DNA from: Rozella allomycis CSF55
Taxonomy: Eukaryota; Rozellomycota
Length of the DNA stretch: 64,000 nt
Direction: 5' to 3'
NCBI GenBank assembly: GCA_000442015.1
Contig: KE560926.1
Location: 1-64,000 of the forward strand
Shown: positions 4,737 through 64,000 of the stretch, piece by piece
How positions within the stretch are numbered: position 1 is the first letter of the stretch
How the letters are laid out: the number at the start of each line of letters is the position of its first letter
The notes under the pieces: model-generated
What the model was told of the DNA's origin: nothing
Database searches by the model: none
The model's input: the letters and a program-made list of their open reading frames with translations, nothing else
Position numbers and translations under genes: made by a program

Positions 4737-6657
4737 ATGTCCCAAGAAACCTTTCCATCCAAAAGTATATTAGAGCTATCATCAAATCATCAAACTAATA
4801 GACGTGCTATTGACAAAATCAGAAATGACATTCAAAAGAGACCCTTTACTCCATTAAAACTTAGAAATAAAAGAATGAATCAAATATGTCAAAGAGGCAA
4901 GGAGACTGTCACATCGCCTAAAAATAACGAATCTTTAGATTTTCAAAACTTTTTGGGTAACATTAAACAAGCCCATTCTTATCCCGAGGATTTTATTAAT
5001 GGTTTAGATTTGTTGTATTTGTCTTTAAATGACATAGAGAAGCTAGATTTATTGAAATATCTGGATAAGACCAAAGTTATCAACACTAGTGTGTCTATTT
5101 TTGTCGCCATTTCGAAATATTTTTTACGGGTATGTGTCGTATATTTTTTGGAGCAAAGGTGAGAAGGAAGAAAATGTTGAGAGTCTTATTTAGCATTTCA
5201 CAAGAAGAAACAAATGATTCATTTTTCACAGAAGAGTTACTTCTTTCCATTTTCTCTATTTTGGAGTTTGAGCTGCCCACATTTTTGGAATCGAAAAGCA
5301 CGTCCTTTATTCACTCAATTGGACTCATTTTCAACTTAAGCATTTCCAAAATGAATCATTATAAGTTCATTGGCCATAAATTTTCAGATTTGCTCGATAA
5401 GATTATACTCCGTATTGTTAGGGATCAAACAAACACATCAAAGGAATATTCCTCAGACGTCTATGTAGTGGTACGTATTTCAGTATAATCTTAAAGCTTT
5501 CAAAATTAATTTTTTCCTCGAGTTTAACCTTGAAAGAATTAACTCTGACTTCTGGTACGCACTCGATTATTCATTCCATTGCAAATTTGCTATGTTGCAA
5601 TACAGAGTATCCTTTGTGTTCCTTAAGTATAGCGCACGCTTTGACGTAGAAATTATTAAATTAAATGATAGGCGATTTTTTATGATTGATGTAAACACTT
5701 CCTCTTTTCCAAGCGTCAATCCATTACTGATGGAGTATCTTGAGACAAACCTATACCTTTTTCCAACTGACGAGAATTGGCAGTTAGTTTTTGGTAGAAT
5801 ACTTTTTTGCGTCGTTGAATATTTTGATCATGAATTTGATGAATCTATTGACATTGTTAAGACAGTCAAAGTTATGGTCAAAATCCTCAAGCAAATTGAT
5901 GATGAAAAATTGGACGAACGTGTAGACAGTGTTTCAAATGTATTTTTTTACTTAAAATTATTTAGATTTTTAGATTTTTTGCCATCGTTAGCGCAGTTGA
6001 TCAAACGCACGGTATCTTCATGATGAACAATGATTACTTAAATGTCTTCTTGGACCTGTTTATGAATTTTAAATGGTAAATTCATTATCATTAAGTTCTT
6101 AGGGACACTCTTTGCTTCAGTTATGGCGTATGTCATCTAGCGAATTTGAGTTACAGTGAAGATGATTTTTTCACACTTTTGCCTGTTAATTTTTATTTGC
6201 GTCCATGTCTGGATGGTATACATATTTCATTTTACTAATAGATATTCTTGGCGCTTTAGAAAAAATTGATTTTCCAGACGCCGCCAGATTTTTGTTGAAC
6301 CTCTCTGCTAATGACAATATTTTGTATTTGATAAATTCTTCGGATACCTGTAAAAATATATATCTAATTAAAAAGATCTAAAACAACTGGTTAGAGTTTT
6401 GATCAACTGTGAGATCGATTCGAAAGCATTGCCTGATATCTTGAAGTCAGTTTGTAATTTACTTCGAAGTGATAATTTTCGTTCGCAGTTTGTTAAAAAT
6501 TTTGGGTGCACAGAGTAATTAATGAGTTTCAAAGTCATTTAGAATAAGAAGGCTACTAAAAAATGTAAGGGGCAGAACTGGAAGAGGCGATCTCAATTGT
6601 GTGAAGTTGCTAGAAATGGCTTGCGATTTGTTAAATGAAAATAAAATTGATCTATAA
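4737..6657 (+). CDS. ARMC2: ARMC2-like armadillo protein (flagellar)
   Basis: Multi-exon gene (about eight introns of 25-30 bases) coding for a protein of roughly 550 residues with a short basic N-terminus and armadillo-like helices. The join at ~5128-5160 gives ISKYFLR-VRRKKMLRVLFSISQ followed by NDSFFTEELL, which resembles the conserved ARMC2 segment where a ...LIFKISRNENND..F motif introduces the ARM repeats. ARMC2 is required for axoneme assembly in motile cilia. The C-terminus reads GRGDLNCVKLLEMACDLLNE before the stop at 6657. Assignment rests on remembered family sequence, so it is moderate; a generic ARM-repeat protein is the alternative. Confidence 0.5.
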
Positions 6658-51600: not shown

Positions 51601-52605
51601 CAATATTATCCAAACAACAATTTTGATCAATATTCTCAATATCAAAGTCATCAACATGGTCATCATGTACAAAGTAATTCAAATCTCCATAGTCAACACG
51701 CTCATAATCAACATGGTCATCCTAATCAACANTTGTCACATGCATCCATGCACAGAGAATCTCATCAACACAGAGAAGGAAGATCCATGTATGGTAAATT
51801 AGATAGAAGATCCAACAGAAATGATAATTATGTTCCTAACCAAAGACAAGAATATAAACCTTACAATCGTCCAAGCAATCGCAGTAATGAGCGTTCTAGA
51901 GAACGTCCAAGTGACAGACACAGTGAATATCGTTCGTATGATCAATACAATCGTTCTTATGATCAGTATCAAGCATCAAATTATCAATCTGGATATTCTA
52001 ATCAAAATCAATCTTACAGCTCTAATTCTAATCAAAATCTATCTTACAGTTCTAACTCTTATCACAATCAATCTTATAGCTCTCAATCTAGTCACAATCA
52101 ATCTTATAGCTCTCAATCTAGTCACAATCAATCATATTACAATCAATATTATCCAAACAACAATTTTGATCAATATTCTCAATATCAAAGTCATCAACAT
52201 GGTCATCATGTACAAAGTAATTCAAATCTCCATAGTCAACACGCTCATAATCAACATGGTCATCCTAATCAACACGCTCCACTCGCTCACCAACAAGCAT
52301 TTCCACCGTCAAACTATTCAAACAATCCAGCTCAACAATACGGCTACCAACAGCCACAATACAGCAACATGAATTACTATGGCCCACAATCAGGATACAA
52401 TTGGAACGCACAGTATCAAACACATAATCAACATCAAGCACCAGCCCATAATCAAAACTATTATGTTCAACAATTACAAAACTACCATGGGCAGCAACAG
52501 CAGCAAAGACCATCAAGAGATCCAAGATCAAGTATCAGAAATCAAACCACGACAAACACTGCTAATCTCGCGTGGTCTAGGAACATTAATCGTCAGAAAA
52601 AGTAA
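48653..52605 (+). CDS. RAT1: XRN2/RAT1 5'-3' exoribonuclease with Gln/Ser/Tyr-rich tail
   Basis: Nuclear exonuclease for rRNA/snoRNA processing and Pol II termination. MGVPALFRWLNNKYPKI, LYLDMNGIIHPCCKPEG, IDGVAPRAKMNQQRSRRF, DASVPGEGEHKIM, GLDADLIMLAL, a CCHC knuckle CTKCQKTGHIAADC as in Xrn2, and FFVGNDFLPHLPSLEI. An acidic low-complexity insert spans 49.9-50.3 kb. A 29-base intron at ~51060-51088 joins NNNAIS to LYFHPQFQDKHGFQSELLPG, the typical Xrn2 end, followed by ~480 residues rich in SYNQHG. That tail contains a large direct duplication split by an N at 51732, probably an assembly artefact, so its true length is about 170 residues less. Confidence 0.93.
51221..52274 (+). repeat. Direct duplication around a single N in the XRN2 tail
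   Basis: 51221-51731 and 51734-52274 are near-identical (first copy 511 bases, second 541; the second has one extra 30-base SSQSSHNQSY-type unit and scattered substitutions, e.g. GRSMHGKLD versus GRSMYGKLD). The N lies exactly at the junction. This is what two unmerged allelic contig ends look like. Confidence 0.85.
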
Positions 52606-52668: not shown

Positions 52669-55600
52669 TTATTTGTAGAATCTCTGTCTGAAAGCATCCA
52701 CAGTTTTAGCATTCCTCTCTTTCCTCACAAAACTCGGTTTCATTTCATAAAGCGATCTAGGAAACTGTTTAACAGCCCTTTCTTCAACCTCAATAAACGG
52801 CGGCGGTCTCTTTAGAATAAACGAAATATCCAAATCCACATCAACATTGACCAAATCCAGCACATTCTGAATAGAAACATCATGCACGGTATAAGACGCG
52901 TGGTTGACTACAGAGTTGACAATGTGATCGTCGTCGTATTGAAACAGAGAGCATTTGTGGTTGTATTCTTGCTGTTTCAATACTTCGAATGATTTCTTCA
53001 ATTGGTAAAATAGAGCGGGTGATGATCGCAGGGGATCGGCAGCGAGTAGTTCAAATGTTTTCAGGATTGATTCTCTGGATTTGAAGAGATTCAGGGGATC
53101 AATGTTTTCCTATACTTTGAATTTATGCATATTACTGAATCGAATGCAGAGTCTGGGTTGATTTCAAAAGAAAGTTTTTCTAGTTTATCAAGGATGGCTA
53201 GATCAGATTGATGTGAAGTAGACCATGAATTTATTTTGAAAGAAAGGGGATCCAAGTATATTTCTTTTGAGATTTCATTTGGATGCAAAATCTATATTAA
53301 GATGGATAACAATTTACGTTTTCTATTTTCGAATTGTTAATTAATGATTTTATTTTCTCATTGAATACAATTCTTGTGCCTAAACCTTTAAAGGGAAGAG
53401 TGAATGATTTTTCATGGCAAATGATTGAAAGGGATCCATTCAATGATCCAGTTTTATTGGCGATTAAATTCAAGTCGATTTGTTTTGATTGTTTTGATAA
53501 AATAGAAAAAGATTCTGGTAAAATTAACTTGTAGTCTTTTGATTCAACTGAAGTAATGACTACGTTGGCAGTAACATCGCCCTTGTTTATTAACTGAATT
53601 TTAGCTTGTTGAATGAAATAACAAGGACAGAAACCTTTTTAATTAAAATTATGTTTGTATTACCAAAGTTTAGAATAGAAGAGGGTTTGATTAGTAGATT
53701 GAATGTACCGCCGACACCAAAGGCGATTATTTCCTTGTAATTTGTTCCTTTGCATTCAACAATAAAATTTTCTTGAAATTTAATGAAATTATTTGGTGTG
53801 AATGAAAGATCTACATTTTCAGATTCATGGACATTCAAAGTTCCATGTAATTTTGACAATCTAAAGACATCTTTTTGATGATAATTGATAGACCATTTAA
53901 GTGGTACTTTACCTAATGATTATTCAATAGGTTTCTATTTACCTAATTATTATTAAAGCATATTATTACCTCTGTTAACTAGCGTGAATGATTTGCTGTA
54001 TAAACAATCCACAGCACACACGCCAAAATCCAAACAAGAATGCCTAATAAACAAATCGGGCTGCACCGACTTTCCTCTCACCGTGCAATCAAACACACCC
54101 ACATTAGTCTTCAAGTGAATCTGGCTTCTCAGTTCATACGCGCCAGAAGGCAGCCAGCTAATTTTAACCATTGCTCTATCCAGCCCATTAATAGAAATAC
54201 AATTCGGCTCTACTCTGATGGGGAATGCAGCAATAATGTCAATTTGGAGTGGATACTTTCCAATATTTACCAAAGGAATTTCCCTCGTCGACAGTTCAAA
54301 GACGGGACAGGTGGACAGGTTTATTGATTCGATTAGAGATAAATCCAGAAGAGCTTCTTCGCATTGCCCCATCAAGTCGACGTGATAGAATTTGTCATTG
54401 GCGTCTGTTTTAATAACTATTTTTTCTTCGAATGGGCCAGTTTTGAATGGAATGCAGCTTGTAGAGATTTCAACAGACTTTTTAGGTAGAACTAGTCCTT
54501 TGAATGTGTGCAGTTGAATGAATGAAGGTTTTGTTAATGGTTTAATAGAAAACTTTGTTTTAACAGAGCCAATGTTTTTAATTATGAAAGATAGTTTGGG
54601 TTTGGTGGATTTTTCAAAAAAGCCGAAATCTAATTTTGATTTTGACACTTCTAGACTGATTGTGCCAGAATGTAATTTGATTGGAATTAGATGCCTTGAA
54701 TAAGGAGAAGAAACTAATAAATGAAGTTGCAAATCTAAATCTTTTGGTGGTTTAAAATAAATCATTAAATTTGATTCTTCAAATGGTAAAATAGTTAAAT
54801 TGGATGGTTGAAGAATTATTAAATTATTAACAATTGAATCTAAAAATAGAAATCTAATAATAATACCCTTGTCTTTATCTTTATCTTTTTCATGAATAGA
54901 AAATGTTAATGGATAATTAACTTGACCAACATTTTTAAAAGTAATTGAATCAGAATATGTATTCCCTTTGAATATAATTGTATGTTATTTACCAACAATG
55001 CAGTCTATGAATTCAAGAGATGATTTTGAGATTAGCAAGACAGATTCTCTTCCAGTTCCAATTAATTCAATTTCATATTTTTCTAATAAAGTTCCAATTA
55101 TAACTTTTCCTGCTGGAGGATTCTCTTCCATTGGCATAAAAATTAATGGCAAATTAAATGTCGTTCCTTTAAATTGTTAACAATCAATGTTACCTGGTTG
55201 AAGTGATATTCTATCCATTGGCCATTCAATTCCTTTAACTGTGAGAATAGATTAATTACCTCTAGAATAATGTTTAGATTCAACCAAATCAAACAATGTT
55301 AAATGAAGAATTGCATTTCCTTCATTTGTTATTGGCAAATAAGACAATGTTTGTTTTCCCAGCATACACAACCCAAAATCAAACCTATATATGTTAAAAG
55401 TAAAGATTTATACCTATTTCAAAGATTAACAATTGATTACCTAGATTATCTACTCTACCTTTTTCTACCTTTTAAATTTGGTTAAACTGATTCGCGCAAA
55501 TCCACCCCCACCAAACATCCCCAACCTAATCCTCTGCGAACAATCAGGTTCAAAATACACAGGCGCACTCTGCACAGCTTCTTCCGTCGGCTTAAAAATA

Positions 55601-58600
55601 AACGCAATAGTAACAGACTCATTAACATTTAAATTACCCTTATTAGGAACAACAACCAGCGATGAATTTTCATTAACAATTTTAAATGAAATAGATTTAT
55701 GCCCAACATTTCTGAAATTTCTGTAAATAGTTTCAGATTGGCCCAACGGCTGTCGACCAAAATTTAAAGTTGAATTGTCGTCTACTAGAATTGTGACTAG
55801 TTTGGGAGAGGCTGTGATTAATGTTTCAATGTTTTTGGTGTTTGGTATGTCTACTTTGCCAATGAGGGTGGATGAGAATGATTCTTCGTTGGGAAGTAAT
55901 AGTTCTATTGTTATTTCAATCTCTGAATGTCCATTGATCATTGTTTCTGATGGGAATACTTTGATAAATGGTTTTGTTGTGCATAGTGATTGTGAACCAA
56001 CTGGATTTGTTGTTATTAAATGATAAAACATTTGCTTCTTTTTCAATTGAATTGATAATATATTCAACATGTTCTTTTTAGTCAATTGTTTAATATCTAT
56101 CAATGATAATAGATGATTATTTACCCAACCCTTTCTCTAAACAACTCTCAAAGCTTACCTTGATCTTTTAGTACCATTCGTTTAATCAACATCCAATAAT
56201 CTTTAGCTTTAAATTCAACAGATTCATTTCTATCCTTTTTCTCTTTAATTAATTGATTTCTTAAAAAGGGAGATCTTGGATCTGTAACTGAAAATTGTTC
56301 TTCTAGATTAACAAAAGATCCATTAGTTTTATTCTGTCCAACAATTGAAAATTCAAATTTTATTCTCGTTGAAATTGAACCCGCATTCGTTATTTTAATC
56401 TTCTTTTGATAAGCATACATGGCTGCTATATCACTAAAATTCAAATCTCCATTAAACGCTAAATTAATTGTTCCACTCTTGCCTATTCTAATCATTTGTG
56501 TTATTTCAAACCTTTTAATGGAATAGTCAAGTCATTTCTTTCAGCAAATATGTGAATAAATGAAGTAACACTCTCTTCTACTCTACTATTAAATCTAACT
56601 AGAAAATCCATGGCACTTGAAGCATTCAACATGAATTGACCATCTTTAATCCAATTAAAGCTAGTAACCTTTAAAAGTACAATTAAAATTAAATTATTTA
56701 CCTATTAATCAAATATAGTTGAATTCTTTCACCTAGTAATCATTTACCAGTACTACTTTACCTATATTAATCATTCCAACTACTACTTTACCTAGTAATC
56801 ATCCAAATTATTCTCCTTTACCTTTTTTCTCTTCTCTTCTTTGATTCTCTCCACAGGATACGCACTGCCAACCACACAAGTACTAAAATCCTGCCCATCC
56901 TGCCTAACATTAAACTGCATCGACACAAGCCCCACATTAATCAGCCTAAAATAACAATCAAAACTAGTAAACAGTGGAATAGTCCCAAAATCAATACACT
57001 CAATTCTAAATCCATCCAGACTCTCCACCTGCAGCTTGCCCAGTCCACCCATCCCAACAACTTTAAGTGAAATGCACTCCTTTTCATACAAGATCTTCAA
57101 ATTGGCAATATATTTGCTATCAGTGCGTGGCTTGAACACAAATCTTAGAGGAATTACACTGTTGGCTTCAATGTAGCCTCGTCGTGGTTGGATGTCCATT
57201 TCACGGATTCCTGTTGGCTGGATCAAATAGTCGATTGAAAAACACGATGAATTTACAAGCTTGAAATTGTTTATCATGCAAGTTAACACTGGCTGCACCT
57301 TTAAATCCAATTCTACATTCTTGTCTGTTGAACTAATTGTTCTTTCGTTGGAATCAATCAGCGATAATCTTGGAACACTACTGGCTCCATTCAATTCCAC
57401 ATCTACAAATTCTTTTCGTGTGTAAATTCTTATAATCTTTTTAAATTCAATTGATTCTGCTGGATTGAATACTATTTTACATTTAATCTTGGAATATGCA
57501 TCTACACACCCTTGATTTGGTTCAATAAACAGTCCATCGTTTTCTAATTCAATCATCCATCTTGTTTTGCCATCCTTTTTTATTGTTTCATAGTCATCAT
57601 CTTCCAATAAACTCCAATCCAAGTTTCCTGGTTGTGGTCGAACCTAAAAGATTTAGGGGTTTAAAAGTACATTACCTTGAAATTAATGCCTAAATTACTC
57701 AAGTTACCTATTATCAAATTATTCAGTATAGATACCTATATTCAAATTATTTCAGTATAGATACCTATTATCAAATTATTTCATCTTATTACCTTGAAAT
57801 TGAATGGCAAATTGCCTTTGTTTTCAATAAGAATCTCTTTTTTAAAAGTAGATTCAACTCTACACATCCCAAAGTCTACAAACAATTCATCAACAGCCAA
57901 CACAGCTTTCCCTATTAAACACCCACAAACACTCATTACCACCATGCCCTCTCACCAGCGTAACAAACGAGCTAAACCCATAATAAAATTCAATCTTATA
58001 ATCATAAAGCACCATTTCAGTCGGTTTAAACGCCAGCTTCACTTCTACCCCCTTATCAACCTTCAATTCTCCCTTATTCGGCTCAACAGTAAATGGACTG
58101 GCTGAATCATACACGTATCGTCCCTCTTTCACCTTTAAAAACCTAACTTGGAATTTAATATCAATGTTGCCGTGGTTAAACAGCTTAAACTTTTTCACCT
58201 CAAAAGACTCAATCTGACACACCCCAAATTCAATACAGTTCATAAACGTTTCTGGTTCAATCACAATCTTTGGAGCGCCAACCTTGCCCTTCAACTGGAT
58301 AGTAAAATAGTCGCCTCTAGCATCATTAGACCTAACGTAGATTTTCACATCCAAGTCTTCAATAACAGTCGGAGTAAACAGAACATTCGCTTTGGCGACA
58401 CTGTTTGGGGGAATACACACCATCCCATTGTCGCTGTTGCTCTCCAATTTAATCTGTGGATGGTAACACGCAAAAGTTAGTGATGCTTCTGCTGGGCCCT
58501 TGTTCTCAATTTCAATGGATTTCACATTCAACACGCCAATCAATGCAACATCAAAGTCTAATTCTTTTGTTAACACTTGGATCTCTGGGTATCCGCCACT

Positions 58601-61600
58601 TCCTTTAAATGATATCACTAGTGGTTTGGGTGTGTTTATTTCTTCTGATTGAACGTGGACTTTTAATTGTCCTTTGATGTTGCAAACACTTTTTGGTTGA
58701 AATTTAATCATCAAATAAACAATTCCATCACCTCATTTCAACAATTCAAACTAGTTACCTTATTATGTCAATATCTTAAACTTTTACCTAATATTTCAAC
58801 CCCGTAAACTTTTTACCTTCAATAGTACCATTCTCTGGTTCAACAGACACTTGCGGGTCGCTACTCTCAATATAAAACTTTGCNACAGACACTTGCGGAT
58901 CGCTACTCTCAATATAAAACTTTGCCGACATAACACCCTGATTAGTAACAGTAACATGATCGACATAAACAATCTGCCCCACACAAACACACTTAAAGTC
59001 AATAAAATCAGTTGAACAAGTTAAACTCGTAGACGCCCCCACTCCCTGCACAAGAATACTGCAGGTGGAATAATCTTCAGTAACCAAATGCAAAATACTC
59101 TGCATTTGGTACTGCGGCATTGACGGCTTGAACACCACATCAACAGTCTGCGTGCACCCGGGATACAATCGACCGTGCAATGGGAATATTTCTAGACAAG
59201 TTGTTAGCAATCTTTGCACTGAGAAATTGGTGTTTGTTATTTGGCCTTGCAGTGCTTTGATTAGGTTTGCGTTTTTGCCGGCTTTTCTGTAGACCATTTC
59301 TTCTTGCTCAATGCACCAGTTTAATGGGACTAGACCATTGTTAGTGAATTTAATTTCTTTTAAATGTTTATCTTGGACTCCACAAATGCCAAAATCAATC
59401 TTTTTCTCTGTTACTATTAATGGTGGTTGCAAACTGGCTTTGGTAGAGTAAACAAATTCTGTGATTGTATTGTTTATTGAAGACACTTTAAATGTTACAT
59501 CAGATTCATATTCTCCCTTATTATAAAGTTTCATCGTAATTTACTTTGGATAGTCCACCAAATGCAAAAACAAAATCTATAAATTGATTTGGCGCTAATC
59601 TTATAGGAAACAATCTCTTCAATGTCTATCATTCTCTATTTAAAACAAATCTTACATTGTCGTTGAATTTAAGTTTAAAGGTGAAATCTAATTCATCCCA
59701 ATCAACACAAATAGAATCTGGTTTTTCATCTTGCAATTCAAATTGATTCTTGAATGGATTCAATGCTTCATGATAAGATTTTACATCATCCAATGCTATC
59801 AATTGATTTGTTCTGTAATCTACAACATTCCAAGCTAATAAATCTGGATTTGAACAATTTAAATTCATCAAACTCAATTCAAATGTACTTGTATTAAACA
59901 ATCTAAATGTTTTTGTTTTACACGAACCAACTCCAACCAATCCAAAATCTATCAAGCTTGGCAAATCTTTAATTGAAACAAATTCAACATTATTAAATAC
60001 ATCAACTGCATTTTCATTCTCTTTCAATAGTTTGGCATCTTTCAACACTGAATCTTTTAACGTTGAGTCTTTTAAGATTGAAGAATCTTTCTGTTTCAAC
60101 TCCTTTATATCTTTCACCTCCTTGACCTCTTTCAACTCATGTTCTTCAACTCCTTCAACTTCAATTATCCTCTTCACACTCTTAGGCCTCGCCAAATTAT
60201 TCTCCAACACAATCTTCCCACTATTAGCCATCAAAGACACAGCAAATGTTTTTCCTTTATGACAAATACAAATAAAATCAGAAAAATAATCAGTCAAAAT
60301 TGGCTGAAACGAAATACTCAACACAATCTTACTCAACTTTGGTATCATCTTGATAATAGACTTTCCATTCAACATAAACGGTTGCTTTGGCGGTAATAAT
60401 GAAATAAAAGTATCCATTGGTGAATTATTATAGATTGTTATTGATTTGTTCACTGAATTGCCAACTTGTACATCGCCAAATGATATTGATTCATTAGTGA
60501 ATTGGATCTCTCCTTCGCCAATACTAGACTCCAAATTTATTATCTTTATTGGAACATTTATCAATTTATTCTTTTCATGCTCCAAACAGTTAATCTCCAT
60601 CTTTGAATGATAGTTTCCTTGTCTCAATGCTTGAAACGACACATCAACACAATACATTTCATATCCATACAACTTGCCATGCGTAGTATTCAATGAAAAT
60701 GGCACTGTAACCTTTTCTTCATTTACTTTATCTAAATATATCTTTGCCTCCCATGACACTTCAATTGGAAATCTATTATAGATCATCAACCGCTCACTCG
60801 TCTTTTCATTCGATTTCGGTGATCCTATTTGAATAACACTTTTAGTTCTTGTTTCTGTCCATATTTGGTTTTGATACACTCCATACAAACTACATCCAAC
60901 ACAACTCTTTCCTATCTCAACCCTTCACCATTAATTACCTTGATCATCACACACAGAAATCGATCCAACAATCGTATTGCTCTGATCTTCAATAAACAAA
61001 TCAAAATAGTTATAATCAATCCCCACAACCAACTCTACACTCTTGTTCGGATACAACGTTCCTTCAACTTCATTCACTACAAAGAATGGCCACGACACTA
61101 CAATTCTATACTTTTGCACTATAGAAGCCACACACGTCAATGTAACTGAAACATTCTTATTCACTTTCAAATACAACGCATTGCAACTCAATTTAAATAT
61201 TTCTGGAGGCGCTTGAATAGATTCAACAACTTCAACCAAATAATCACTCTCACTAAACATCAATCTTCTATCCTCTTCTCGCCCAAACAATGTTCTTATT
61301 TGCGCTACAGTCTTCACCTTCAAAAACGCTTCACTCAAACTCATTCCAAATATCACATAAACTACTTTCGGCATCTTTATCGGCTCACTCATCTTTACAC
61401 TCAAATTACTTTTATAAATCCCTCCCTTGGCTGGATTAAACACCAAATCCACAAAATACACTGAACAACTCGGCATACACAACACCAACACTTGCTCATC
61501 CTCTTCATTCTTCATCTCTGCCTTTACCATCTCATTCTTATTATAAACACTATTAGGCTTCATACTGAACACACCATTCTTCTTTTCTATTCTAACTTCC

Positions 61601-62741
61601 ACTCTGCTACTCTCCAAATGCGGATTATAAATGGGAACAACGATATTCACACTAGCCTTCGGATTCACCGCAGGCATCACAATCGTCTGTCCAAACGGCA
61701 CATTCACCATACAATTCACCTTGCAAACACACTCAACACTCTTAACTTCACTATTAGGGCTATAAATATTCAACACACTATTCTTCATCCCTCCAAAATT
61801 CGGTTTAAAATACACACAAACTTTCCTCTTCTCACCAGGTCTCAACACAAGCGCCTCCATCTCCTCTTCAATCAATACCTCCCTTGACCCACTCTGTATA
61901 ATAACAGGCACACTCTCCTTTTCATCTTTATTAATCAGCGTCAAACTCTTTTCAACCTTCTCCATCGACACATCACACACCCCAAAATCTAAGCGGTCTT
62001 CAACTACCTCCAACGCACTAAAACAGCGTCCTTTCAATTTCACAAAATGCTTCTCCCCATACGCCGTCAATATCATCAGCTCATCCTCAATCTCATCCTC
62101 CTCACACTGCGGCTGGAACGTTATCCATATCTGCTGCTTGTTCCTCGGCCCAATAGTCATGCTACCCACACTGCTCGCAAAAAATGAACTCGTTTTGCTA
62201 GGCACAACACTAAATATACAGTTCAAATCCATCCCCGATAAATTAGACACAACCAGCAACGCCTTTCTCTCGTCTTTAACAATACACGTTCCGAAATTCA
62301 GTCTCTGTGCTGATAAATGCAAAACTGGAATATTAAACGCTCTCAATGACAGTCTATTCCATCTTTGATAGTTTATTACCTCTCCAACAGGAATCCATTC
62401 ACATTCCTCACACGCAAATACCCATTAATGTCTCTGCCCATCGTAATCTCCAACGGTCTGGGCGTATACTGGATGCTCAAATTGGCATTCGAATTCGCCT
62501 TCAAAAACACATACCCAGGCTCTGCTACAAACAGATTCGGTGGATATGTTTGCAAACACAGCGATACATCCACATCCGATTTATTGTAAATGTTAACCTC
62601 TTTAGACAAATTAAACTTGTTGAATATCAAACCGGTTGGCAAACTAAATGTTATAGTGGCCGGATCAAGAACAAAATCTCTTTGCTTGTCATTGCCAGAT
62701 GCGATTTCATCAAGAAACGTTATAGAAGAAAATTTCCCCAT
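52669..62741 (-). CDS. Giant ASH-domain axonemal protein, HYDIN/CFAP47-like
   Basis: About 3,100 residues of repeated ~100-residue Ig-like ASH/MSP domains. Domain openings are visible along the whole gene: LNFGTCIVK, LDFGVCDVS, ISFGDVQVG, IDFGLVGVG, IDFGICGVQ, IDFKCVCVG, LDFDVALIG, IEFGVCQIE, VDFGMCRVE, LNFGRQPLG, FDFGLCMLG, LDFGFFEKS, LDFGVCAVD, LNFGFCPCY. No CH domain, kinase or coiled coil was seen. HYDIN and CFAP47 are central-pair proteins of motile flagella; I cannot decide between them. Around 20 introns; most are 26-30 bases, but six positions hold intron arrays (listed separately). The frame is maintained at every array only if the whole array is removed. A single N at 58884 with a 41-base duplication falsely repeats AKFYIESSDPQVS. 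The C-terminus (KRPPPFIEVEERAVKQFPRS) is not ASH-like. Start taken as ATG 62741; an upstream leader exon is possible. Confidence 0.78.
53913..53969 (-). repeat. Intron array A, two units
   Basis: Units 53943-53969 (27 bases) and 53913-53942 (30 bases), each GTAA...TTAG, abut with no base between. Upstream exon ends LVNRG (AACAGAG), downstream exon starts GTAAAGTACC; removing both units gives NRGKVPLKWSINYHQ, a normal ASH strand. Total 57 bases. Confidence 0.7.
55387..55470 (-). repeat. Intron array B, three units
   Basis: Units 55443-55470 (28), 55416-55442 (27) and 55387-55415 (29), all GTA...TAG and directly abutting. Complete removal joins SLTKFKR to FDFGLCMLGKQ, restoring an ASH start; removal of only one or two units leaves stops. 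The first unit itself contains a second AGGT-like junction. Confidence 0.72.
56097..56158 (-). repeat. Intron pair C with 6-base spacer or microexon
   Basis: Two 28-base GT-AG units (56131-56158 and 56097-56124) flank GGTTGG (56125-56130). Splicing both units and keeping the spacer gives KDQ-GL-DIKQLTK; removing everything gives KDQ-DIKQLTK. Both are in frame. Confidence 0.6.
56669..56821 (-). repeat. Intron array D, five units
   Basis: Units 56792-56821 (30), 56762-56791 (30), 56733-56761 (29), 56702-56732 (31) and 56669-56701 (33). The first three begin GTAAAG and share GATTACTAG/GATTAATATAG ends. The upstream exon ends at EEKRKK (AAAAAG) and the next starts VTSFNWIKDGQF. Total 153 bases, several times the usual intron size here. 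Confidence 0.75.
57644..57792 (-). repeat. Intron array E, five units
   Basis: Units 57765-57792 (28), 57736-57764 (29), 57708-57735 (28), 57676-57707 (32), 57644-57675 (32). Units 2 and 3 both start GTATCTATACTGAA and end AATTTGA(T)A(T)ATAG, differing by small indels, and unit 1 shares the 3' half, so they are tandem copies. Removing all five joins GNLPFNFK to VRPQPGNLDW. Confidence 0.78.
58732..58816 (-). repeat. Intron array F, three units
   Basis: Units 58788-58816 (29), 58759-58787 (29) and 58732-58758 (27). The first two share GTAAAA(A)GTTTA and are likely copies. Complete removal joins PENGTIEG to DGIVYLMIKFQPKSV, a textbook ASH strand; leaving any unit adds a stop. Confidence 0.74.
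58843..58925 (-). repeat. 41-base direct duplication around a single N in the HYDIN-like gene
   Basis: 58843-58883 and 58885-58925 are identical except one base (gggtcg versus ggatcg), with N at 58884 between them. It duplicates the residues AKFYIESSDPQVS in the protein. Same signature as the XRN2 junction: unmerged contig ends. Confidence 0.85.
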
Positions 62742-62886
62742 CAAATCTATTTTAGCGATGTGTTTAATTTACTATTGAGAGAGAACGAGCGCAACGACGC
62801 TGACACTTTACGTTGCCTCTGTGCGATGGTCTCAATATCATCCCTTAATTCTTGGCGCGCAAATACCGTATAAACTGGCGGCTCAA

Positions 62887-64000
62887 CTATATTTTCCTCA
62901 TTAAAAGCTCGTTACCATTTTTATCATCATCAAAATACGGAAGCGCTTGCACCATGCCATTAGCCTTTTTCTTATTAGCATTTGCAAACTTTTTAGATCT
63001 CGTCCATCCAAATTCTGCATTATGCTTTATATCACCCGATTTCCCTGAATCAAACCTAGTAGCATCTTCAACCATCCATTTCCTTCTACGCACAGCATAC
63101 CCGCAATCACCCAAATACTTTTCATTGCCTTCCAAATTGGCCTGCAAAGATGGAAGCTGCGCAATGTGAGAATCAGAGGGCAGCGGATACCATTTGTTCC
63201 AAAACTTGGAAATTGCCTTTACCAGGTGCGGATGGTAGTCTTCATTCATGGATCCGATTTCATCAAACAAATTAAATGATAGCTCTTTGACAGCAACAAA
63301 GAAAGTATTCATTCTTTGTCGATTGCGATTGGTCATATCCAATCGACACAAAAACGACAATACCTCTGCTTGCAACAGGAAATGCACATTCTCATTCAAC
63401 AGATGCAAAAGCACCATGTCAATGTAATCTGCTATATGCTGCTTTATAGCCTTGTTTTCATCACGCATGAAATACGACAAGGCATTCAATATCATTATAC
63501 GATTCTTGGTATGCTCATCAGCAACAAAATACTCCTTGTGTGGCGGCTTCTGTGTATGCACAGCAACAGGAAACAGCTTCACAAACATATTCACAACAAC
63601 AATACAACCCAAACGCAATGAGACACTGTAATTCTCGCCAAATGCGGAATTCAAATAACCAAGCACAACATACGCCAGAAACCTGTTCTGCTCCACCTTT
63701 TATCATCAAAGATATACACCATACTTCATCACTGCTGGCAATATCAGTAACCCGTACGATCAACGCGCGGATACTTTCAGCATTCAGCAACGTGCTTTGG
63801 ATAGCATTGGCGCCCATATTAAATAACATTTTCATAGTGGTCAATCTAATGAATGTCTCGGGAGACTTTAGCGCATTAAGGATATTGTTCCAATGTTCTT
63901 CATAACACTTCATATTCATATAATTCTATTAATGCAATACCAATTCTTTACATAGTCACAAGAAAGCATGGAATATGCTTGTATTATTTGCTTAAAAATT
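62887..64000 (-). CDS. HEAT/ARM-like helical protein, N-terminus outside window
   Basis: Reading leftward from the edge: IFKQIIQAYSMLSCDY, a 26-base intron, then MNMKCYEEHWNNILNALKSP, ETFIRLTTMKMLFNMGANAI, a 28-base intron, then VEQNRFLAYVVLGYLNSAFG, SVSLRLGCIVVVNMFVKLFP, DEHTKNRIMILNALSYFMRD and FLLQAEVLSFLCRLDMTNRN. Paired amphipathic helices indicate HEAT/ARM repeats. The C-terminal ~90 residues are basic and disordered (RRRKWMVEDATRF, RSKKFANANKKKANG). The frame stays open to the window end, so the start is beyond it. Family not recognised. Between its stop (62887) and the HYDIN-like start (62741) there is only a ~145-base promoter. Confidence 0.6.

Follow-up and report, generated by a model that had tools for sequence, protein, structure and literature searches.

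We consider it fairly likely that spliceosomal introns of about 28 nucleotides (nt) have multiplied in place at AG/GT sites (the slash marks the junction) in the genome of Rozella allomycis CSF55, and that the arrays so formed would be cleared from the transcript unit by unit through exons of zero length. The case starts from a HYDIN-like gene with ASH/Ig-like repeats on the minus strand of contig KE560926.1, within positions 1 to 64,000, the stretch of 64,000 nt that we call the window (Table 1). The gene is identified by Pfam HYDIN_VesB_CFA65-like_Ig matches, i.e., domains of the HYDIN/ASH type, in a profile search, and its product matches PDB chain 7sqc_F0 ('Hydin') with E=2e-18. At six sites the coding frame is interrupted by consecutive GT...AG units, and re-reading the sequence confirmed, on the minus strand, the unit counts that an initial annotation had given for all six, together with its coordinates. 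As had also been stated, five of the six are abutting arrays, in which units of 27-33 nt are set head to tail and joined as AG/GT, and all five are flanked by exonic AG and GT. Outside the six sites, 14 single introns of 26-30 nt were decoded in this gene.

With the arrays excised whole, the frame runs for ~3,243 codons to one stop, a count that includes a short repeat at an assembly seam. The initial annotation held that only removal of the complete array restores the protein, which is nearly so: 77 of the 79 combinations in which units of the five abutting arrays are partially retained shift the frame or add a stop codon, and the other two do neither. Elsewhere in the genome, the spliced product of a dynein heavy chain gene on contig C27 aligns over 479 residues to axonemal dynein heavy chain 2 (9fqr_D0), and the alignment is gapless and highly conserved at the joints left by a three-unit array (6254-6337) and a two-unit array (5216-5272), with a one-residue indel near a third joint. 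The array joint in a UBA1 gene (contig C40) is gapless against 9mc4_A. Frame and homology thus support the conclusion that the mature product would lack the whole array. The arrays resemble spliceosomal GT-AG introns in having GT..AG ends at frame breaks and in that their removal restores a conserved protein, and a spliceosome is represented in the same genome by Prp8 domains on contig C134.

Table 1. The HYDIN-like gene of the window, its intron arrays and neighbouring landmarks (window positions).
Feature	Position	Strand	Details
HYDIN-like gene (ASH/Ig-like repeats)	53297..64000	-	Pfam matches, PDB Hydin match, last open frame, decoded open reading frame; decoded from the window edge, 64000 being the decoding limit and not a mapped 5' end
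Stop codon of HYDIN-like gene	53297-53299	-	
3-unit array	58732..58816	-	58788-58816, 58759-58787, 58732-58758 (29+29+27 nt)
5-unit array	57644..57792	-	57765-57792, 57736-57764, 57708-57735, 57676-57707, 57644-57675 (28+29+28+32+32 nt); first three units resemble one another
5-unit array	56669..56821	-	56792-56821, 56762-56791, 56733-56761, 56702-56732, 56669-56701 (30+30+29+31+33 nt)
Sixth site, non-abutting pair	56097..56158	-	56131-56158 and 56097-56124, 6 nt between (28+6+28 nt)
3-unit array	55385..55468	-	55441-55468, 55414-55440, 55385-55413 (28+27+29 nt); unit 55441-55468 contains an inner AGGT
2-unit array	53913..53969	-	53943-53969, 53913-53942 (27+30 nt)
Single intron, example	54966..54992	-	decoded in HYDIN-like gene
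Single N joining overlapping contig ends	58884	.	overlap of 41 nt with one mismatch; beside array 58732-58816

The restriction to one flagellar gene in the initial annotation proved too narrow. In the genome-wide search for repeated GT...AG units that it had proposed, a strict two-unit pattern (donor GTAA, junction TAG/GTA, unit-sized gaps) gave 176 matches in 9.97 Mb against 2 for the reversed pattern, whereas with gaps 16 nt longer, as a spacing control, it gave 1 against 9 reversed. The strict pattern and its spacing control were used because looser counts are too noisy: a loose genome-wide pattern gave 302 matches against 207 reversed, and chains defined by AGGT only failed, in 264 kb, to separate short chains from reversed DNA (3 two-unit, 2 three-unit and 2 five-unit chains in the real sequence, and 17, 3 and 0, respectively, in the reversed one). 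Since it recovers 22 of the 32 arrays curated in stretches that were analysed as sequence, the strict pattern undercounts. The first 100 listed of the 176 matches represent 64 arrays on 25 contigs and fall into 29 clusters, 13 of which hold at least two arrays within 6 kb.

These clusters coincide with genes. Arrays are found in dynein heavy chain genes on contigs C27, C39 and C82 and, by position, in two more on C132, where one array sits at a break in the match to the dynein stalk domain; further carriers are a second HYDIN-like gene (C101), a Sec7-domain gene (C87) and the UBA1 gene. The spliceosomal Prp8 gene itself appears, by position, to hold at least three arrays (C134:15781-18743): the match to the U6-snRNA-binding domain is broken at one array (positions 1-45 and 42-159), and two more lie on the same strand between this domain and PRP8 domain IV. 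Beside C27 and C93, the densest clusters among the listed matches are C101:19570-21582, C101:151055-154120 and C65:2897-6414, and the cluster at 19-22 kb of C101 falls in a HYDIN-like gene. Twenty unselected 10-kb stretches, amounting to 190 kb because the one on C13 reads N throughout, showed zero GTA-type arrays against 242 decoded single introns, and we therefore regard the arrays as clustering in certain genes, several of which are long. The stretch C8:1-10000 has no decoded intron on either strand, unlike most stretches, and may be contamination or simply lack introns.

De novo decoding of 317 kb by codon usage with GT..AG introns placed 456 of 494 introns (those used for the last model) at 26-30 nt, and 96% start with GTA. 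When the length preference was removed and 15-250 nt were allowed in a subset of the loci, lengths of 26-30 nt still accounted for 158 of 278 introns; 94 exceeded 40 nt, six of which are arrays, and the remaining 88, thinly spread over lengths and not checked one by one, we take to be decoder noise. On the gene strand of nine array-gene stretches, 33 interruptions of at least 45 nt were found, 20 of which split exactly into abutting units, and their detection had needed one pair of outer signals only. A random GT..AG stretch would split in this way with a chance of ~0.0005-0.0015 at 84-89 nt and of ~0.03 at 57 nt. The other 13 are, in our reading, cases of short introns fused with adjoining or intervening coding sequence, of shifted array ends, of gene or locus ends, of an N seam or of the sixth HYDIN site.

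Arrays are also set apart by the sites that they occupy. Three gene stretches that are whole or nearly so have exonic AG upstream and GT downstream of 14 of 18 arrays and of 1 of 31 single introns (P=6e-8). This count omits two doubtful introns at the edge of the C27 locus as well as a decoder product that falls on an N seam, and it treats each of the two units at the sixth HYDIN site as a single intron. The remaining four arrays have one of the two flanks.

The chief competitor is removal of the whole array at once, as a composite intron of 53-176 nt bounded by the first GT and the last AG, in which case the inner sites would be relics of duplication; we regard this as unlikely, while still deserving serious attention. 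It would give the identical mature product, the decoder needs the outer sites only, and there is a precedent in fission-yeast introns spliced across 24-nt repeats, for which the passages concerned report expressed sequence tags; for one gene such a tag removes a longer segment than annotated (PMC3629103, PMC4974935). However, the nine array-gene stretches yielded no convincing simple intron above ~45 nt, although the decoding without length preference left the 88 long candidates that we take to be noise. Moreover, removal as one intron would let the inner junctions decay and duplication occur at any site, and neither is seen: the inner junctions are intact and the arrays hold to AG/GT sites. 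Stepwise removal of the units, which the initial annotation considered more economical if the spliceosome is tuned to ~28 nt, is therefore most likely; the sequence favours it over a composite intron and falls short of demonstrating it.

For the origin of the units we compared 138 units of 26-33 nt from 47 curated arrays, 32 of them from stretches analysed as sequence and 15 from loose-pattern matches, including two second-haplotype copies. Curation dropped nine chains judged coding or unclear and one reduced to a single unit, left out several two-unit loose matches and, in some arrays, cut away terminal units (first or last) that were exonic or doubtful; all 47 have AG/GT junctions by selection. 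The insides of adjacent units are 64.6% identical on average, as compared to 54.1% (standard deviation 0.7) after shuffling units among arrays. At least 80% identity is reached by 16 of 91 adjacent pairs, by 3 of 73 non-adjacent pairs in an array, and by 9 of 720 pairs drawn from different arrays on one contig, seven of these nine being second-haplotype copies. At C65:4016-4167 an ABAB order is followed by one last unit; the two A copies differ at one position, the two B copies at two. In the array C87:4142-4287, the 5' part of a unit shares 11 of 12 positions with the downstream exon, more than in any of 3,000 permutations, and the best upstream exon match is 10 of 12 (P=0.09).

Local tandem duplication of introns at AG/GT is well supported by these comparisons. 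The initial annotation had proposed multiplication in place by tandem duplication or by repeated insertion, and it is the former that is borne out, by the likeness of adjacent units, the ABAB order and differences between haplotypes. It is improbable that units were inserted one by one at AG/GT by an introner-like mobile element. Such an element would explain the preference for AG/GT and the lack of clear similarity between many neighbouring units, but it should leave a shared sequence, and none of 8,569 between-contig unit pairs reaches 80% identity, i.e., there is no introner-type family of near-identical units; what similarity exists is local, as in the ABAB array.

The haplotype differences are seen at assembly seams. 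Single Ns (window positions 51732 and 58884, and many other loci) join overlapping contig ends that are often 93-98% identical, while other Ns join ends without overlap; it looks as though contigs had been built by linking haplotypes or strains end to end, with the end sequences duplicated. An array on C27 is present on both sides of such a seam, its unit 1 differing at 7 of 29 positions with the junctions intact. A C87 array is likewise present on both sides, where the first 44 nt of the next exon are identical and the units differ in sequence and make-up. We take the two sides of these seams to be haplotypes that differ in their units.

Two further explanations carry little weight. The shortest internal eliminated sequences of Paramecium are similar in size to the units, which could suggest that the units are cut from DNA, as in ciliates, or bypassed in translation instead of being spliced. 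This is very improbable, because the GTA..AG ends are those of the class of single introns found throughout the sampled genome, because Prp8 is present, and because a tree of the XRN protein of the window (39 of 120 listed matches) places the organism on the fungal side (31 rows, support 97/95), beside two other proteins with modest support (88/92 and 93/79). An assembly artefact, which the initial annotation had named as what would refute it, or a decaying gene is hardly credible: some arrays do adjoin single-N seams of overlapping contig ends, but the C27 and C87 arrays occur on both sides of seams, and frames or domain matches continue on either side of arrays in conserved genes.

We thus return to multiplication in place followed by stepwise splicing, for which we propose the following course. 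An AG/GT site gives an intron the same four flanking bases at both ends, such that slippage or unequal exchange could insert or remove complete units, whatever the register, and leave the coding sequence untouched. The units then diverge, each keeping its own GTA...AG, as is seen in the sequence, where 137 of the 138 donors are GTA and one is GTG. Each excision would join the exonic AG to the GT of the next unit and thereby remake a donor, which would allow the spliceosome to walk through the array in ~28-nt steps, via zero-length exons and in either order. Unit-by-unit splicing would make duplication at AG/GT neutral in every register, and the four-base repeat would help slippage. The acceptors are not accounted for by this scheme: inner units end in TAG in 71 of 91 cases, last units in TAG in 20 and AAG in 23 of 47 (P=5e-5 for inner versus last TAG). 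Last units were not significantly less similar to their neighbours than other units (P=0.13).

Several observations weigh against this proposal. Splicing and its order are predicted here from DNA sequence, and the intactness of the junctions could partly reflect the youth of some arrays. Not every array shows duplication: the identity of many adjacent pairs is no higher than that of unrelated ones, and arrays of two units have a mean of 0.58, with only 1 of 23 at 0.7 or above. A general resemblance between units and exons was not significant in array means (P=0.11 and 0.52), clear exon-derived ends being seen in C87:4142-4287 only. Depletion of silent retention was not detected for array units (4 of 58 silent against 5.8 after shuffling; for single introns of the same genes, 0 of 33 against 2.6). 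A search for branch points returned no strong motif, only weak TTAAA- or TTGAA-like words, and units that had lost GT or AG would slip past the pattern searches. The HYDIN alignment also adds little: one five-unit joint, the sole array joint covered, is aligned gap-free to 7sqc_F0, and the weak alignment ends five residues past it.

On balance we lean towards the wider view that introns in this genome behave like a minisatellite, in that any AG/GT intron can expand and turn over in place and a spliceosome tuned to ~28 nt would clear it one unit at a time, by way of several zero-length exons in succession, as a routine process throughout the genome that includes Prp8. The arrays make visible a route of intron gain, probably ongoing, in which local duplication can raise the number of introns at one site at no coding cost; the haplotypes differ in their units. 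They would also make splice-site pairing testable, since every donor faces several similar acceptors at 28-nt spacing.

In open-licence papers, we found no description, among the matches listed, of ultrashort introns that stand complete in arrays of two to six and recur in many genes. Within this search, zero-nucleotide exons, stwintrons, introns born by duplication and dual-specific AGGT arrays are each known singly, and arrays of complete introns in multiple genes appear to be new. The model of Rogers and Hellsten, in which a segment containing AGGT is duplicated in tandem (PMC4974935), shares with our case the AG/GT at both edges, which here takes the form of AG and GT on the two sides of the site in the 14 of 18 arrays, and local duplication that is neutral to splicing. 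In the passages concerned, however, a single new intron is born from duplicated exon, or exons are copied along with their intron, whereas here complete introns are arrayed without exons. The fission-yeast genes SPOG_01682 and SOCG_00815 (PMC3629103) likewise have very short tandem repeats with proto-splice sites that are spliced across, but these are, in the part of the paper concerned, two cases with 24-nt repeats, AGGC sites and repeats that resemble a nearby exon, as opposed to arrays of diverged complete introns. In Cryptococcus (PMC2395259), intron number is altered by repeat expansion and is polymorphic in the population, and the relevant passages do not mention exon-free abutting introns. 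Sanchytrids are described in the corresponding passage as having lost axonemal dyneins (PMC8371127), which are present in this genome.

With respect to splicing, the stwintrons of ascomycetes (PMC5639578) are comparable in that two introns at one position are spliced consecutively. As described in the passages concerned, one of them interrupts a splice site of the other, whereas in the arrays complete introns abut, each unit has its own donor and acceptor, and no internal intron splits a donor, branch site or acceptor. The tandem dual-specific splice sites of human UBC (PMC10809524) also form an array of AGGT sites that can serve as donor or acceptor, but its units are, according to the passage in question, coding and optional, while those described here are intronic and, in the HYDIN-like gene, nearly always break the frame if kept. 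A parallel to a donor that is remade at each step is provided by the ratchet points of Drosophila (PMC8605326), where a joint AG/GT acceptor-donor lies inside the interruption. In the passages concerned, these points serve long introns and need a cryptic RS-exon, for which the ~28-nt steps of the arrays leave no room, as the next unit of 26-33 nt follows at once, and the arrays, carried by a number of genes, run to as many as six consecutive units. If our interpretation is true, splicing through zero-nucleotide exons, as seen in very long introns, would apply to some of the shortest as well.

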